Origin: a virus | Strand: one strand, 5' to 3' | DNA length: 22,320 nt | Virus record (IMG/VR): IMGVR_UViG_3300022746_000056 | Coordinates: 1 to 22,320 of that record | In this document: one piece after another, positions 1,572-8,327 of the stretch | Layout of the letters: each line of letters begins with the position of its first letter | Position numbering within the stretch: the first letter of the stretch is position 1 | The notes under the pieces: model-generated | Databases searched by the model: none | What the model was told of the DNA's origin: nothing | The model's input: only the letters and a program-made list of their open reading frames with translations | Made by a program: the position numbers and the translations under genes

Positions 1572-1858
1572 TGGGCAGAAACAATAAAGACTTCCACGTT
1601 AACTTTAACGAACAACTAGGCAAGTCTTTCCGTGTAGTGACCACTCCCCCAGGTCGTGCAAAAGACTCTCGAACAGGTGAAACACTGCCAGATAGCCCAG
1701 ACCGATGGTCTATCGTGACTCCTTCTAATGGAAAAGCCTGGGAATGGCCTACAGCCACTCCTAAAGCCCACGAAGAAGCCAGAAAAGACTTCAATAACCT
1801 CTTCACTGACCGCCGTCTTAAATACAAGGGCCGTCAAATCCGCAAAAACATGAAGTAA
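1571..1858 (+). CDS. 95-residue hypothetical protein with MGRNN leader
   Basis: The ATG at 1571 is chosen over the in-frame ATG at 1562. It gives the leader MGRNNKDFH shared with the two upstream genes and the same TAATG one-base stop/start overlap. The rest is unlike the GNAT copies: a Pro/Asp-rich middle (DSRTGETLPDSPDRWSIVT) and a basic end (RRLKYKGRQIRKNMK) that could bind nucleic acid. Function unknown. It closes the first operon; a 12-bp hairpin follows at 1910. Confidence 0.7.
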   Translation: MGRNNKDFHVNFNEQLGKSFRVVTTPPGRAKDSRTGETLPDSPDRWSIVTPSNGKAWEWPTATPKAHEEARKDFNNLFTDRRLKYKGRQIRKNMK

Positions 1859-1909
1859 TCCGTGCGTTAGAGCGAAAAACAGCACATTTAACGGAAAAAT
1901 GGGGGCCCG

Positions 1910-1937
1910 CTGGGGTTGCCCAAAGGGGCAACTCCAG
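1910..1937. terminator. Strong hairpin closing the first operon
   Basis: CTGGGGTTGCCC (1910-1921), loop AAAG, GGGCAACTCCAG (1926-1937): a 12-bp stem with one G-T pair. No T-run follows on the + strand, so it may be a factor-assisted terminator or an mRNA 3' stabiliser. On the - strand an ATTTTT stretch lies about 10 bases beyond the stem. Confidence 0.6.
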
Positions 1938-1955
1938 TACATAGCTAAAATAATC

Positions 1956-1964
1956 TGCTATACT
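1956..1964 (+). promoter_or_regulatory. Extended -10 promoter TGCTATACT (hsp20)
   Basis: TG-C-TATACT at 1956-1964 sits 19 bases after the upstream hairpin. The 14-mer TAATCTGCTATACT (1951-1964) recurs exactly at 4934-4947, upstream of thyX, and in a near copy before the phosphatase gene at 7854. The -35 region is weak (AGTACA at 1936-1941), as usual for extended -10 promoters. Predicted start is near 1971, giving a leader of about 105 bases. Confidence 0.6.
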
Positions 1965-1972
1965 CTTCTTTA

Positions 1973-2076
1973 GACATGCCAATTGGGTGTCTATAACTAA
2001 TACTGTGCTACGGGCAGTTTGAACTTATCGGAATTTCCGAAATGTTCGTACACAGTTGTCGTCTAAGGAGACAGTA
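1973..2076 (+). promoter_or_regulatory. Structured 5' leader of hsp20; possible RNA thermometer
   Basis: The leader can form AGACA/TGTCT closing over CCAATTGG (1973-1993), and ACTGTG (2002-2007) with CACAGT (2051-2056) enclosing TCGGAA/TTCCGA (2028-2040). Next to the start codon lies GTCT-AAGG-AGAC (2061-2072), which puts the ribosome binding site AAGGAG in the loop and 3' arm of a weak 4-bp stem. Weak occlusion of the binding site upstream of a small heat shock gene is the hallmark of RNA thermometers, but the fold is judged by eye only. Confidence 0.35.
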
Positions 2077-2595
2077 ATGAGCAAAGAAGTAAATTTCCGT
2101 CAGCCATGGAACCCAGCCTCCACTGGTAGGAGCCCCTATGAGCCTGACAACCACACTTATCCCCCGCAAAAGAAGCCTGCCCCTATTACTATGGCAGACC
2201 TTTTCCCACAGCTAGACCGCCTCTCAATCGGTTGGTCTCCTGTCCTTGACCAACTACGTCAAACCACCCTTAATAAGCCCTCCTACCCCCCTTACGACCT
2301 CATTAGCGTGGGAGATAACCAGAACATCCTAGATGTTGCTGTTGCTGGATTCACTAAGTCGGAAATCTCTGTGACTGTGGAAGACTCTATCCTTGTAATC
2401 AAGGGCGAGAAGAACACTGAGCGTGCTGGAGAGATTCTTCACAAGGGCATTGCATCTCGTGACTTTGAGTTGCGTTTGGCTATGGCTGAGTACTGGGAGG
2501 TAATCAGGGCCTCAATGGACAACGGTATGCTTACTGTTCTATTTGGAAAAAATCTTCCCGAAGAAAAGAAGCCAAAAGTTATTGACATCAAGTAA
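2077..2595 (+). CDS. HSP20 / alpha-crystallin small heat shock protein
   Basis: 172 residues from the ATG at 2077, chosen over the TTG at 2056 because AAGGAG lies 6 bases upstream. Residues about 70-172 form the alpha-crystallin domain: PPYDLISVGDNQNILDVAVA, GFTKSEISVTVED..LVIKGEK, LHKGIASRDFELRL, and the family signature AxxxNGxL (ASMDNGMLTV) before the C-terminal tail PKVIDIK. The N-terminal 65 residues are Pro-rich and variable, as usual. Such proteins are ATP-independent holdases that keep unfolding proteins soluble. Phage copies are known in T4-like cyanophages, where assembly or host-protein protection is proposed. The gene stands alone with its own promoter and leader. Confidence 0.93.
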   Translation: MSKEVNFRQPWNPASTGRSPYEPDNHTYPPQKKPAPITMADLFPQLDRLSIGWSPVLDQLRQTTLNKPSYPPYDLISVGDNQNILDVAVAGFTKSEISVTVEDSILVIKGEKNTERAGEILHKGIASRDFELRLAMAEYWEVIRASMDNGMLTVLFGKNLPEEKKPKVIDIK

Positions 2596-2612
2596 TCTTG
2601 GTGTAGTATAGG
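2582..2612 (+). promoter_or_regulatory. Candidate promoter for the RNA region
   Basis: TTGACA at 2582-2587 overlaps the hsp20 stop. Possible -10 boxes are TAGTAT (2604-2609, 16-base spacer) and TATAGG (2607-2612, 19-base spacer). It would drive the 0.8-kb ORF-free region and the tRNA-Ser genes. The same bases may instead be part of a tRNA-like fold, so this is uncertain. Confidence 0.3.
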
Positions 2613-2777
2613 AACACAACCTCGAAGCGGCTTGGGTGGTACCAAGTGAGGCGCTGAGATAGCCCAGAGATTGAACTCGACTGGATGACGGTATAGCCAA
2701 AACGTGCTAGAGTTCCTGAGGGATAGACAGTTACCAGCTGTTGTTTCTCTCAGTATTCCAGGGCCGCTGGGCGGTGA

Positions 2778-2824
2778 CGGGCCTCCAAAACCTGTCTTGC
2801 AGAGTTCGATTCTCTGACTTGGGG
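2778..2824 (+). ncRNA. tRNA-Trp-like 3' half (anticodon loop CTCCAAA plus T arm)
   Basis: An anticodon-like arm CGGGC-CTCCAAA-ACCTG (2778-2794, CCA anticodon, one C-A mismatch) is followed by a 5-base variable loop, a perfect T arm CAGAG-TTCGATT-CTCTG (2800-2816) and an acceptor-like ACTTGGG plus G (2817-2824). I cannot build a normal D arm and 5' acceptor next to it. The best partner is ACCAAGT at 2641-2647, which pairs at six of seven positions but lies about 130 bases upstream. It is either a tRNA fragment, an interrupted tRNA, or part of a larger tRNA-like RNA. Confidence 0.4.
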
Positions 2825-3145
2825 CAAACAGCGTTGCTGCTCAATAGGTCCGCTAGGGCTTAACGATTACGGATGCTGGTCCTATCACCCATTGCTGCGG
2901 CAGGTGATAGGATACACCTGGATAGATGAAGCGCACTTGGAAAGCTGAAATACCCTTTCCTCGCCTCTCACTGTCAAGTAACAAGGCTTGAAGGTTACTG
3001 TCTCTGATGATGGTTACTTGCAAGGGCTGGATAGTCTTGTTGCGAATGGACTTACACCTGCGGTTCGTTATTGTTCAGCACCTCGAAAGAGATTAAGTTG
3101 TAAGCTGTCAAGGATTGGTCTCCCGCATGTGCGAAACGACTAAGA

Positions 3146-3222
3146 TAGGCTGTAGAGTAATAGCAGAGCCACCTCCTGAACGTACGCAGGGGGAAGTGCA
3201 GGTATAAGTCCTGCCAGTCTAT
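3146..3222 (+). ncRNA. tRNA-like RNA with 7-bp anticodon-position stem
   Basis: The acceptor arms TAGGCTG (3146-3152) and CAGTCTA (3215-3221) pair fully with one G-T. The T-arm position has GCAGG-TATAAGT-CCTGC (3198-3214), with a 7-base loop but no TTC. Where the anticodon arm should be there is CCTCCTG-AACGTACG-CAGGGGG (3172-3193): 7 bp with an 8-base loop instead of 5 bp with 7. The D region (3155-3170) pairs poorly. Overall size is 77 bases. It has the shape of a tRNA but no standard anticodon loop, so decoding is unlikely. Confidence 0.4.
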
Positions 3223-3226
3223 CAAA

Positions 3227-3313
3227 AGGGCTGTAGTGTAATAGGCAACACAGTGCCTCAGGGAGTTCCCAGAGGAGCGCACGCAGTTTCGAGTTCGACT
3301 CTCGACAGCCTAC
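3227..3313 (+). ncRNA. tRNA-Gln-derived RNA with an expanded anticodon arm
   Basis: The D arm GTGT-AATAGGCA-ACAC (3236-3251) matches the D arm of the tRNA-Gln at 7735 in 15 of 16 bases and fits the A-box pattern. The T arm TCGAG-TTCGACT-CTCGA (3289-3305) is canonical. The acceptor AGGGCTG/CAGCCTA pairs at five positions plus a G-T, with an A-A mismatch at the end. In place of a normal anticodon arm is a long rod: GTGC-CTC-A-GGG-AGTT-CCC-A-GAG...GCAC (3253-3282), 13 bases longer than standard. Either a tRNA whose anticodon arm was replaced, a tRNA carrying a small insertion, or a decayed copy. Confidence 0.5.
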
Positions 3314-3416
3314 TGCAACAAGCCGTATGGGCTTCAGAGTGCCGAAAGGGCTTGACCGCTGCCAGCAACGTCCCGCTAGCGTGCAGTAACAGGGTTGTGA
3401 CTGTTACAGGGCAATT

Positions 3417-3504
3417 GGTGGAGTGGCCGAGCGGCCTAAGGCGGCAGTCTTGAAAACTGTTGAGTGTAACAGCTCCGTGGGTTCAAATCCTACCTCCACC
3501 GCCA
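3417..3504 (+). tRNA. tRNA-Ser (anticodon TGA)
   Basis: A class II tRNA of 88 bases including encoded CCA. Acceptor GGTGGAG/CTCCACC, anticodon arm CAGT-CTTGAAA-ACTG with anticodon TGA, long variable arm closed by GAG/CTC, and T arm GTGGG-TTCAAAT-CCTAC. It reads UCA and, by wobble, UCG, a codon used often in the capsid and other virion genes here. The next tRNA starts at the very next base. Confidence 0.96.
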
Positions 3505-3592
3505 GGAAGATTGGCTGAGCGGCTTAAGGCAGCTCCTTGCTAAGGAGTCGTGGGGAAACTCACCACAGGTTCAAATCCTGTATCTTCCGCCA
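3505..3592 (+). tRNA. tRNA-Ser (anticodon GCT)
   Basis: A class II tRNA of 88 bases with encoded CCA. Acceptor GGAAGAT/ATCTTCC, anticodon arm CTCC-TTGCTAA-GGAG with anticodon GCT (reads AGC/AGU), long variable arm, and T arm ACAGG-TTCAAAT-CCTGT. It directly abuts the previous tRNA with no spacer, so both must come from one precursor. Confidence 0.96.
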
Positions 3593-3595
3593 CAC

Positions 3596-3625
3596 TTGTC
3601 TATTCACCAAAAGTTTGAGTAAACT
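3596..3625 (+). promoter_or_regulatory. Candidate promoter giving a leaderless dCMP deaminase mRNA
   Basis: TTGTCT (3596-3601) and TAAACT (3620-3625) are 18 bases apart, and the ATG at 3632 lies 7 bases after the -10, where transcription would start. No ribosome binding site is visible before this ATG, which fits leaderless translation. An AAGTTT/AAACTT hairpin (3611-3626) covers the same bases, so read-through from the tRNAs is the alternative. Confidence 0.3.
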
Positions 3626-3631
3626 TACCTC

Positions 3632-4093
3632 ATGCAAAAGTCATGGGTTGAAGTATGGTTAGAAGTAGCGCAAGTTATCTCTCAGCGCTCTAGGTGTTCA
3701 CGAGCACAAATCGGAGCTGTAATTGTCAACCAAGACCAAAGAGTCATTAGTACGGGCTATAACGGTGCTGCTGCTAGCTACCCAACTACAGGTGACTGCA
3801 CTAATTGGTGTGAAAGAGCCCAAGGTAAGACGGGACTAGGTTCCTCTTACGAAGGCTGTCCTTCAATCCACGCAGAAGCTAATGCCCTTCTGTACGTGGA
3901 CCGTTCTGCTGTACACGGAGCAACTATGTACATTACAGCCCCTCCTTGCATGAATTGTGCCAAGTTAATCTCTAATAGTGGGGTTACTGAGCTCATACAT
4001 CTAGTTGGGCCAGAAGACATGCACCGTAATCCTGACGAAGTATGGGCATACCTAGAGAAATGCGGTATGCTTGTAACTAGCATTAGTAGATAA
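3632..4093 (+). CDS. Deoxycytidylate (dCMP) deaminase family protein
   Basis: 153 residues. Zinc-dependent deaminase signature: H80-A-E82 (SIHAEANAL) with the catalytic glutamate, and P105-C106-x-x-C109 (APPCMNCAK). An additional Cys/His-rich loop (GDCTNWCERA...YEGC) is typical of dCMP deaminases, as is the N-terminal CSRAQIGAVIV. The enzyme converts dCMP to dUMP, the substrate for the ThyX encoded 1 kb downstream, so the two supply dTTP for phage DNA. Length fits the family. No ribosome binding site is evident before the ATG, only 39 bases after tRNA-Ser. ComEB-type deaminase is the nearest named relative. Confidence 0.92.
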   Translation: MQKSWVEVWLEVAQVISQRSRCSRAQIGAVIVNQDQRVISTGYNGAAASYPTTGDCTNWCERAQGKTGLGSSYEGCPSIHAEANALLYVDRSAVHGATMYITAPPCMNCAKLISNSGVTELIHLVGPEDMHRNPDEVWAYLEKCGMLVTSISR

Positions 4094-4099
4094 TGCTAT

Positions 4100-4172
4100 G
4101 CCCCGATAGCTCATCTGGTAGAGCGACGCACTTGTAATGCGTAGGTGGCGGGTTCAAGTCCTGCTCGGGGCT
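4100..4172 (+). tRNA. tRNA-Thr (anticodon TGT)
   Basis: 73 bases, class I. Acceptor GCCCCGA/TCGGGGC, D arm beginning TAGCTCATCTGGTAGAGC, anticodon arm ACGCA-CTTGTAA-TGCGT with anticodon TGT (reads ACA/ACG), and T arm GCGGG-TTCAAGT-CCTGC. CCA is not encoded. It starts 6 bases after the deaminase stop, and a T6 run follows immediately. Confidence 0.95.
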
Positions 4173-4196
4173 CTTTTTTATTTAGAAAGGGAAATG

Positions 4197-4505
4197 ATGA
4201 AGAGCATCACAATAAACGAATGGCAATCCGAAGTTCTAGACAAAGAACTGGTTCTAGTGGACTTCTGGGCAGAATGGTGCGGTCCTTGCCGTGCTCAGGC
4301 ACCAATCCTAGAACAATTAGAGATAGACATTGCTAAACTGTCAGTAGTTAAGGTCAACACTGACGAAGAGACTCAACTGTCACTAAACATGGCGATTAAG
4401 AGTATTCCTACACTAATGTTGTTTAAGAAGGGCGAACATGTGTGGACCCTCACTGGAGCAAAACCTCGTGGAGTACTACTAACGGAGATTACACCTTATG
4501 TCTGA
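4197..4505 (+). CDS. Thioredoxin
   Basis: 102 residues from the second of two adjacent ATGs (4194, 4197), preferred because AAAGGG (4186-4191) is 5 bases upstream of it. Full thioredoxin fold: VDFWAEWCGPC with redox cysteines C28 and C31, then KVNTDEE, the cis-proline loop SIPTLMLFKKGE, and a final helix. Thioredoxins reduce protein disulfides. In a phage with its own nucleotide genes it may serve a ribonucleotide reductase or act with the replication machinery as T7 uses host thioredoxin; no reductase gene is in the window. The stop lies inside the next start (ATGTCTGA, 8-base overlap). Confidence 0.95.
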   Translation: MKSITINEWQSEVLDKELVLVDFWAEWCGPCRAQAPILEQLEIDIAKLSVVKVNTDEETQLSLNMAIKSIPTLMLFKKGEHVWTLTGAKPRGVLLTEITPYV

Positions 4506-7853: not shown

Positions 7854-8327
7854 GTGAGCCGTAACAATGATTTCGAACTTCAGCACCCACTCCACAAGAG
7901 AGGTGAGACTGTCGTGTTCGACCTAGACGGCACCCTCGCAGACACCATGAAGTACGAGAAGCATCACAAAGCCAAAAACGGTAAACACCCAGGCTTTGCT
8001 CAGGAAGCACTCCACGTCGGCACTAACGACAAGATGGTCAACAAGCTTAAAGACGCCAAGGATGACGGCAAGAATGTAGTTATCCTCACTGCACGTTCGG
8101 CGCATTACCGAGATGAAACCAAGAAGTGGCTTGCCTCTAATGGCATCAACTATGACGCCTTGGTAATGCGTCCTACGGATAACCAGGACAAGGATAAGGT
8201 CGTTAAGCGTAGCCTTCTCGAAGAGGACATCCTACCTAAGTTCGATGTAGACAAAGCGTACGATGACAAGAAGAAGAACCGTAAAATGTTCGACAAACTG
8301 GGCATTGACGCTAAAGGGGTTAAGTAA
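7854..8327 (+). CDS. HAD-family polynucleotide 3'-phosphatase-like protein
   Basis: 157 residues. HAD motif I FDLDGTLADT (catalytic D23 and D25), motif II ILTAR (T79), and a Lys-rich motif III region (DKDKVVK) followed by IV (AYDDKK, D137/D138). The order VMRPTDNQDKDKVVK...LPKFDVDKAYDD...M..LGI closely follows the C-terminal phosphatase domain of T4 polynucleotide kinase, which removes 3'-phosphates from nucleic-acid ends. The kinase half is absent. The leader MSRNNDFE recalls the MGRNNxDFH leaders of 919-1858. GTG start is probably leaderless. A role in end repair of DNA or cleaved tRNA is inferred; no ligase is in the window. Confidence 0.82.
   Translation: MSRNNDFELQHPLHKRGETVVFDLDGTLADTMKYEKHHKAKNGKHPGFAQEALHVGTNDKMVNKLKDAKDDGKNVVILTARSAHYRDETKKWLASNGINYDALVMRPTDNQDKDKVVKRSLLEEDILPKFDVDKAYDDKKKNRKMFDKLGIDAKGVK

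Follow-up and report, generated by a model that had tools for sequence, protein, structure and literature searches.

What phage transfer RNA (tRNA) clusters are for has long been asked, and gaps inside them usually stay blank. We were intrigued by one such gap in a 22.3-kb record of an uncultivated virus, IMGVR_UViG_3300022746_000056, all of which (22,320 nucleotides, nt) is referred to here as the window. What occupies positions 2592-3416, between hsp20 (Pfam HSP20) and two tRNA-Ser genes? An earlier note, made from the sequence alone, had described this region as free of open reading frames (ORFs), highly structured and carrying repeated tRNA-like units. We find that conserved RNA genes overlooked by annotation tools, tRNA look-alikes unable to decode among them, fill most of the gap, and we consider it probable that the region consists of individual single-copy RNA genes which form one array with the phage tRNA genes.

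Structured modules on the tRNA strand

The description of the region as ORF-free is borne out. Those ORFs of at least 60 amino acids that it contains extend to 66-76, two of them on the minus strand, and none is supported. No Rfam family scores above threshold in the region, and the only tRNA match there at E<=10 is sub-threshold, at 3232-3307. A blastn search of 1800-4500 against phage records gave only deaminase and tRNA-region hits among the matches listed. The predicted minimum free energy is -300.3; shuffles average -283.2 (z -2.05; 0 of 20 shuffles equally stable). The region is structured, as had been claimed; the stability of the fold taken whole is modest and the individual modules are supported by compensatory changes.

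The region is largely tiled by discrete modules lying on the tRNA strand and separated by spacers of mostly 0-4 nt. In order, these are as follows.

2757-2824, + strand: uA, a tRNA-Trp-like unit with anticodon CCA and discriminator G, seen from its cloverleaf and covariation
2825-2914, + strand: E2, a two-hairpin RNA that begins CAAACAG directly after uA
2918-3043, + strand: E5, about 127 nt, two long-stem domains (GGATAGATGAAGCGC...; GTAACAAG...CTTGTTGC)
3049-3105, + strand: E1, about 57 nt, outer stem 3051-3056/3099-3104, hairpin 3061-3078 and GNRA hairpin 3082-3091
3108-3143, + strand: E4, a hairpin of about 36 nt with stem TTGGTC 3115-3120/GACTAA 3138-3143, directly 5' of uB
3144-3223, + strand: uB, a tRNA-like unit with a 9-base-pair (bp) acceptor 3144-3152/3215-3223 and T arm 3198-3214 (loop TATAAGT), from a single sequence
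3227-3313, + strand: uC, a tRNA-like unit with acceptor 3228-3233/3306-3311, a D arm and T arm 3289-3305

E1, E2, E4 and E5 are structured RNA families outside Rfam that are common to different phages. Covariation exceeds that of all 500 shuffles in E1, E2 and uA; the search for compensatory changes in related phages gave them in abundance. G-U pairs are tolerated in the stems and the modules keep to one strand, both of which point to RNA rather than to DNA sites.

E1 occurs in 11 contigs including the window, with at most one copy per record, and eight of its 14 pairs are changed on both sides (0 of 500 shuffles). The GNRA tetraloop mentioned in the earlier note lies here: the loop is GAAA (3085-3088) in the window and GCAA or GTAA in relatives, and its closing stem covaries. 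Across the alignment 25 of 61 columns are invariant, with phages lacking a terminase match to the window included. The E1 stretch had no credible BLAST match in 50,697 phage records. One match to the E1 pattern in GTDB genomes was rejected as chance since the flanking stems are absent.

E2 is found in 20 contigs including the window at 42 bits or more, one copy in each; 12 of 22 pairs are changed on both sides (0 of 500 shuffles) and the second hairpin carries a conserved cap, ACCC-wTTGCyGmGGCA-GGT. The stretch 2820-2960, covering E2 and E5, likewise had no credible BLAST match in the 50,697 phage records. About 15 of 34 matches to the E2 pattern fell elsewhere and were set aside as chance.

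E2 is also the best candidate for a different explanation, namely that the modules are cis-acting helpers (insulating hairpins, terminators or antiterminators like HK022 put, which acts in cis) and not free RNAs. Its two hairpins are adjacent, it starts a few nt from the 3' end of a tRNA, tRNA-like unit or tmRNA (transfer-messenger RNA) in most contigs, and where it ends an array the DNA after the second hairpin is T-rich (L120 and L144, with shorter T runs in L141, L154 and L156). Nevertheless, there is one copy per phage and not one per tRNA, the loops are conserved beyond the needs of a spacer or terminator, and no T run follows E2 in the window. We judge the cis-acting explanation unlikely.

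E4 is present as 13 copies in 12 contigs, nine of which pass a profile search, and in relatives it mostly lies directly upstream of a tRNA-like unit. With the helix aligned by hand, 75 of 78 cells of the outer stem are paired compared with 57.6 expected (0 of 2000 shuffles). RNAalifold found no useful helix in the automatic alignment, because MAFFT had misplaced two subgroups. E5 is known from five contigs, the window, L147, L148, L153 and L159; four of its 38 pairs are changed on both sides (2 of 500 shuffles), and the covariation score was attained by 1 of 500. Most of the 24 matches to an E5 16-mer lie elsewhere and were discarded as chance.

The tRNA-like units

The window was scanned on both strands under a strict pattern, a T stem of 5 bp bearing a T-loop and then seven bases having their complement upstream. 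Seven units were found in 22.3 kb: the four tRNAs named by ARAGORN and, inside the region, a further three (2757-2824, 3144-3223 and 3227-3313). In 1000 dinucleotide shuffles of the region the mean number of T arms was 0.014 and three were never obtained, which upholds the presence of tRNA-like units. The scan pattern was extended to the T-loop of uB, TATAAGT, once this had been noticed; the T-loops of uA and uC fit the standard pattern. The units had been called repeated, and this is correct for their architecture only. No sequence repeats were found within the region, and uA, uB and uC have no sequence in common except for a short GGCTGTAG-GTAATAG stretch in uB and uC. A further unit suggested at 2592-2675 finds no support, as it has neither a T arm nor a homologue in the fetched loci and a promoter-like site (2582-2609) overlaps its supposed D arm.

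In uA the D arm (2764-2774) is reduced to 4 bp and a TGG triloop; the T arm occupies 2800-2816. Homologues occur in nine other contigs, some near-identical, and provide eight distinct sequences for alignment. Over the four cloverleaf helices 15 of 22 pairs are changed on both sides and 96% of cells are paired (0 of 500 shuffles); the D arm alone reads CCGC/GCGG, GTAC/GTAC, GCAC/GTGC or GTGC/GCAC in different phages. A model built on uA scores its members at 87-97 bits and ordinary tRNAs at 41 bits or less, and uA does not match the Rfam tRNA model (gathering threshold 29 bits). The anticodon loop has 9 nt by pairing, or 7 nt if closed by a C-A mismatch, and in either case CCA is kept. In Escherichia coli the CCA anticodon and G73 are parts of the Trp identity set, and uA, which keeps both, may still be charged. 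The possibility of an intron-split tRNA at 2640-2823, with acceptor halves about 170 nt apart, was rejected because the homologues place the 5' acceptor strand of uA at 2757.

The anticodon arms of the units had been described as abnormal. This is true of uB and uC and not of uA, where it is the D arm that is abnormal. At the position of the anticodon arm uB has a hairpin of 7 bp (3172-3193) whose 8-nt loop, AACGTACG, lacks the usual anticodon-loop pattern; no homologue of uB was found, nor does it match the Rfam tRNA model at 29 bits. In uC the same position is taken by CCTC-A-GGG-AGTT-CCC-A-GAGG (3256-3275). This unit reaches 22.4 bits with the Rfam tRNA model, below the 29-bit gathering threshold, and has one homologue, in L147, which is about 85% identical and scores 37.3 bits. 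In the homologue the second acceptor pair is changed from G-C to A-U and the replacement of the anticodon arm is retained as CCTC-A-GGG-AGyT-CCC-A-GAGG. Neither uB nor uC has a 7-nt anticodon loop and hence neither forms the cloverleaf that defines a tRNA.

Could uB and uC be ordinary or frameshift tRNAs, the latter with a four-base anticodon, that the programs misread? ARAGORN reports uC as 'tRNA-???' with the four-base anticodon 'cagg', and the homologue of uC attains 37 bits as a tRNA. However, the supposed loop of uC sits in a tetraloop hairpin, CCTC-A-GGG/CCC-A-GAGG, that is kept in the sole homologue, and uB combines a 7-bp stem with an 8-nt loop of the wrong pattern. We therefore give this explanation very little weight, and the programs ARAGORN and Rfam do not resolve the units as ordinary tRNAs.

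Decay is another possibility, with tRNA pseudogenes and spacer debris accumulating in a fast-evolving tRNA cluster. The deviation of uB and uC from tRNA rules would be explained, as would the sequences at either end of the region (2592-2756 and 3314-3416), which have no homologues. Set against this, the compensatory changes in E1, E2, uA and E4 far exceed those in shuffles, the 25 invariant columns of E1 persist even in phages without a matching terminase and paired changes maintain the odd D arm of uA. Decay is in our view a most improbable account of the region.

Arrays in other phages and known RNA systems

Related arrays interleave the modules with tRNAs and tmRNAs on one strand, separated by spacers of a few bases, and their order is loose with many gaps and insertions. 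In other phages uA, uC, E1, E2, E4 and E5 have homologues that are differently ordered and combined, and ordinary tRNAs or a tmRNA stand between them; E1 and E2 lie mostly 0-4 nt downstream of a tRNA end in varying combinations. Across 30 array contigs (293 kb) we counted 28 T-arm units outside the ARAGORN calls, of which 23-24 were judged to be array members, compared with about five unexplained units on the opposite strand.

This arrangement bears on whether E2, E5, E1 and E4 could instead be domains of a single large ornate RNA. GOLLD and ROOL are structured phage RNAs near tRNA islands, of unknown function (PMC12286853), and by position they are the named families nearest to the array. The size of the region, about 0.8 kb, and its place beside phage tRNAs match these classes (PMC12286853), and a loose order of E2, E5/E3/E8, E1 and E4 is kept in several phages. 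Yet modules also stand alone or are separated by tRNAs, as in L118 (Asn, E2, Trp, E1, Thr); E1 comes without E2 in L121, and E2 without E1 in L144 and L156. GOLLD and ROOL are single RNAs of about 650-850 nt, unlike the short separate modules with tRNAs between them seen here, and their covariance models find no match in the region of the window (E<=10) or in its relatives. A single large RNA thus appears highly unlikely.

Separate RNA genes remain our preferred reading, and the modules appear to move between phage lineages or to be very old, since records that share them often have no match to the window terminase. Only four contigs among the array records other than the window carry a similar terminase (80-82%), and array-bearing contigs of 79-152 kb show no match to it. 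Furthermore, neither E1 nor E2 was found in eight records with a close terminase (G001, G005, G007, G008, G014, G022, G027 and G029, some of them fragments), and the modules are therefore not simply inherited with the structural genes.

RNAC and RNAD of phage T4 lie in the T4 tRNA cluster. Their function is yet unknown (PMC9697503). Like the window, T4 thus has small non-tRNA phage RNA genes inside a tRNA cluster. The window differs in having several families where T4 has two, and its families span phage lineages; transcription has been demonstrated in T4 and is a prediction for the RNAs described here. On the best reading RNAC and RNAD, likened by description and not by sequence, would be the nearest kind to the array RNAs and unrelated to them. 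The earlier note had proposed a comparable but unrelated RNA system, and this is supported; in place of one RNA we find several separate RNA genes, three of them tRNA-like and one of these still reading as tRNA-Trp.

The acceptor stem and T arm of uA, uB and uC, with the CCA anticodon loop and G73 of uA, are those of tRNA; the D arm of 4 bp and 3 nt in uA and the missing anticodon loop in uB and uC are not. An acceptor and T arm without an anticodon arm also recall the tRNA-like domain of tmRNA, but the D-loop motif of tmRNA is missing from the units of the window, where neither RF00023 nor ARAGORN detects a tmRNA. YrlA, a bacterial Y RNA and tRNA mimic, is similarly a tRNA-like non-coding RNA; the Y RNA models of Rfam have no match in the window. 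The Ro (TROVE) protein is absent from the 21 uncultivated records searched, a set with several partial records and to which that of the window does not belong, and is present in a distant cultured relative, Streptomyces phage LuckySocke. LOOT is reportedly a published motif from tRNA-rich phage regions, and the Rfam scan of the region had no match above threshold.

Further RNAs were observed in these arrays. Short RNAs (about 80 nt) at L147:8559-8641 (-), L146:6515-6597 (-), L188:12700-12780 (LuckySocke) and L119:1555-1635, and in the arrays of L128, L135 and L181, look like the tRNA-like domain of tmRNA on its own. They have no tag reading frame and score 42-65 bits with the Rfam tmRNA model in L147, L146 and L188; by eye all copies have a D-loop motif of the TTCGAC/TTCGTC/GTCGAT type, a G3-U70 pair and A73. 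A second tRNA-like RNA, with acceptor and T arm, occurs in the arrays of L118, L125, L131, L148, L150, L153 and L159. The loop of its large hairpin is CTCTCCTCCTTTGTG or nearly so and holds the 16S anti-Shine-Dalgarno sequence CCTCCTTT; the L118 copy is a variant from which the full motif is absent. Further tRNA-like units with odd anticodon arms are found in the arrays of L122, L124, L135 and L153, at L123:5271-5337 and L124:3997-4064, and in the array of L131. They comprise E6 (GGTAACTGGAAGCACTCCAGG...GGTGCAAATCC), units in which a stem of 2-3 bp closes an 8-nt rTTGATCA loop, and a unit with CCTC-GATA-GGGG. LuckySocke itself (L188, OR725497.1; cultured, terminase 50% identical) has 30 tRNA genes, with the Ro-like RNA-binding protein among them and an RNA ligase beside them; E1 and E2 are absent.

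A possible RNA programme and its neighbourhood

We propose that transcription of the array, possibly starting at the promoter-like site (2582-2609), would give a single precursor and that the tRNA-processing machinery would cut it at the ends of tRNAs and tRNA-like units to free the modules as stable RNAs. E1, E2, E4 and E5 might then serve as regulatory or protein-binding RNAs and, less surely, uB and uC could, as tRNA mimics, bind the host enzymes responsible for tRNA sensing, charging or cleavage, all within the same programme. A mimic or decoy role, the idea that we favour and yet rate at less than even odds, is suggested because uB and uC keep the parts recognised by processing enzymes, CCA addition and EF-Tu and cannot decode. 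Resistance to host enzymes that cut tRNAs has been proposed for phage tRNAs whose anticodon loop is altered (PMC10264068). This proposal, and a PNKP-type phosphatase-like gene in the window that fits a contest over tRNA damage without proving it, are in line with a mimic role; proof comes from neither. More speculatively, arrays of real tRNAs, anticodon-less mimics and new small RNAs could form a widespread and so far unrecognised phage programme for seizing or shielding the host translation machinery, to which relatives add tag-less tmRNA domains and the anti-Shine-Dalgarno-loop RNA. Should the modules be expressed, the role of some phage tRNA clusters would go beyond supplementing codons. 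The alignments and models from this analysis allow others to search for these RNAs.

A number of points weigh against the region being a set of expressed RNA genes. The transcription, processing, stability and function of the modules are predictions, no module is tied to any molecular partner and the promoter match is at chance level. The structures of uB and uC rest on few sequences because the former has no homologue and the latter one, and decaying tRNA genes can also yield tRNA-like units. Since short exact patterns were used to retrieve most of the homologues, the sample is tilted towards conserved cores, and the shuffle control ignores the relatedness of the sequences. Finally, the fetched loci gave no homologue for some 270 nt of the region (2592-2756 and 3314-3416). 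The features that flank the modules are listed below.

2582-2609, + strand: promoter-like site, TTGACA-16-TAGTAT, at the end of hsp20 and head of the RNA region (10 of 12 matches)
2592-2756, + strand: leader with a hairpin at 2716-2753 (CTGAG...CTCAG); no T arm and no homologue in the fetched loci
3314-3416, + strand: structured stretch before tRNA-Ser that folds well; no homologue in the fetched loci
3417-3504, + strand: tRNA-Ser(UGA), from ARAGORN and Rfam
3505-3592, + strand: tRNA-Ser(GCU), from ARAGORN and Rfam
4100-4173, + strand: tRNA-Thr(UGU), then a terminator-like T run

The promoter-like pattern has its sole match within 2.9 kb at this site, and the number found is not above that in shuffles (2.8 expected).

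The window phage is probably from freshwater. Many IMG/VR contigs carry a terminase 78-83% identical to its own, and Streptomyces phages such as BRock and LuckySocke carry one about 50% identical, a resemblance that makes an actinobacterial host likely. As a probe for close relatives hsp20 retrieved one distant contig and no others.

Two observations concern neighbouring genes. An HAD phosphatase gene at 7854-8327, which adjoins a tRNA-Gln on the opposite strand, matches the PNKP 3'-phosphatase domain, and its product has a possible role in RNA end repair. A structured conserved leader (GACATGCCAATTGGGTGTC, CTACGGGCAGT, CACAGTTGTCGTCTAAGGAGACA) is present at 1950-2080 of the window and in L061, L010, L106, L147 and L120. 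It precedes hsp20-like genes in the window and four of the others, the gene downstream in L147 not being resolved, and may act as a cis regulator, for instance an RNA thermometer.
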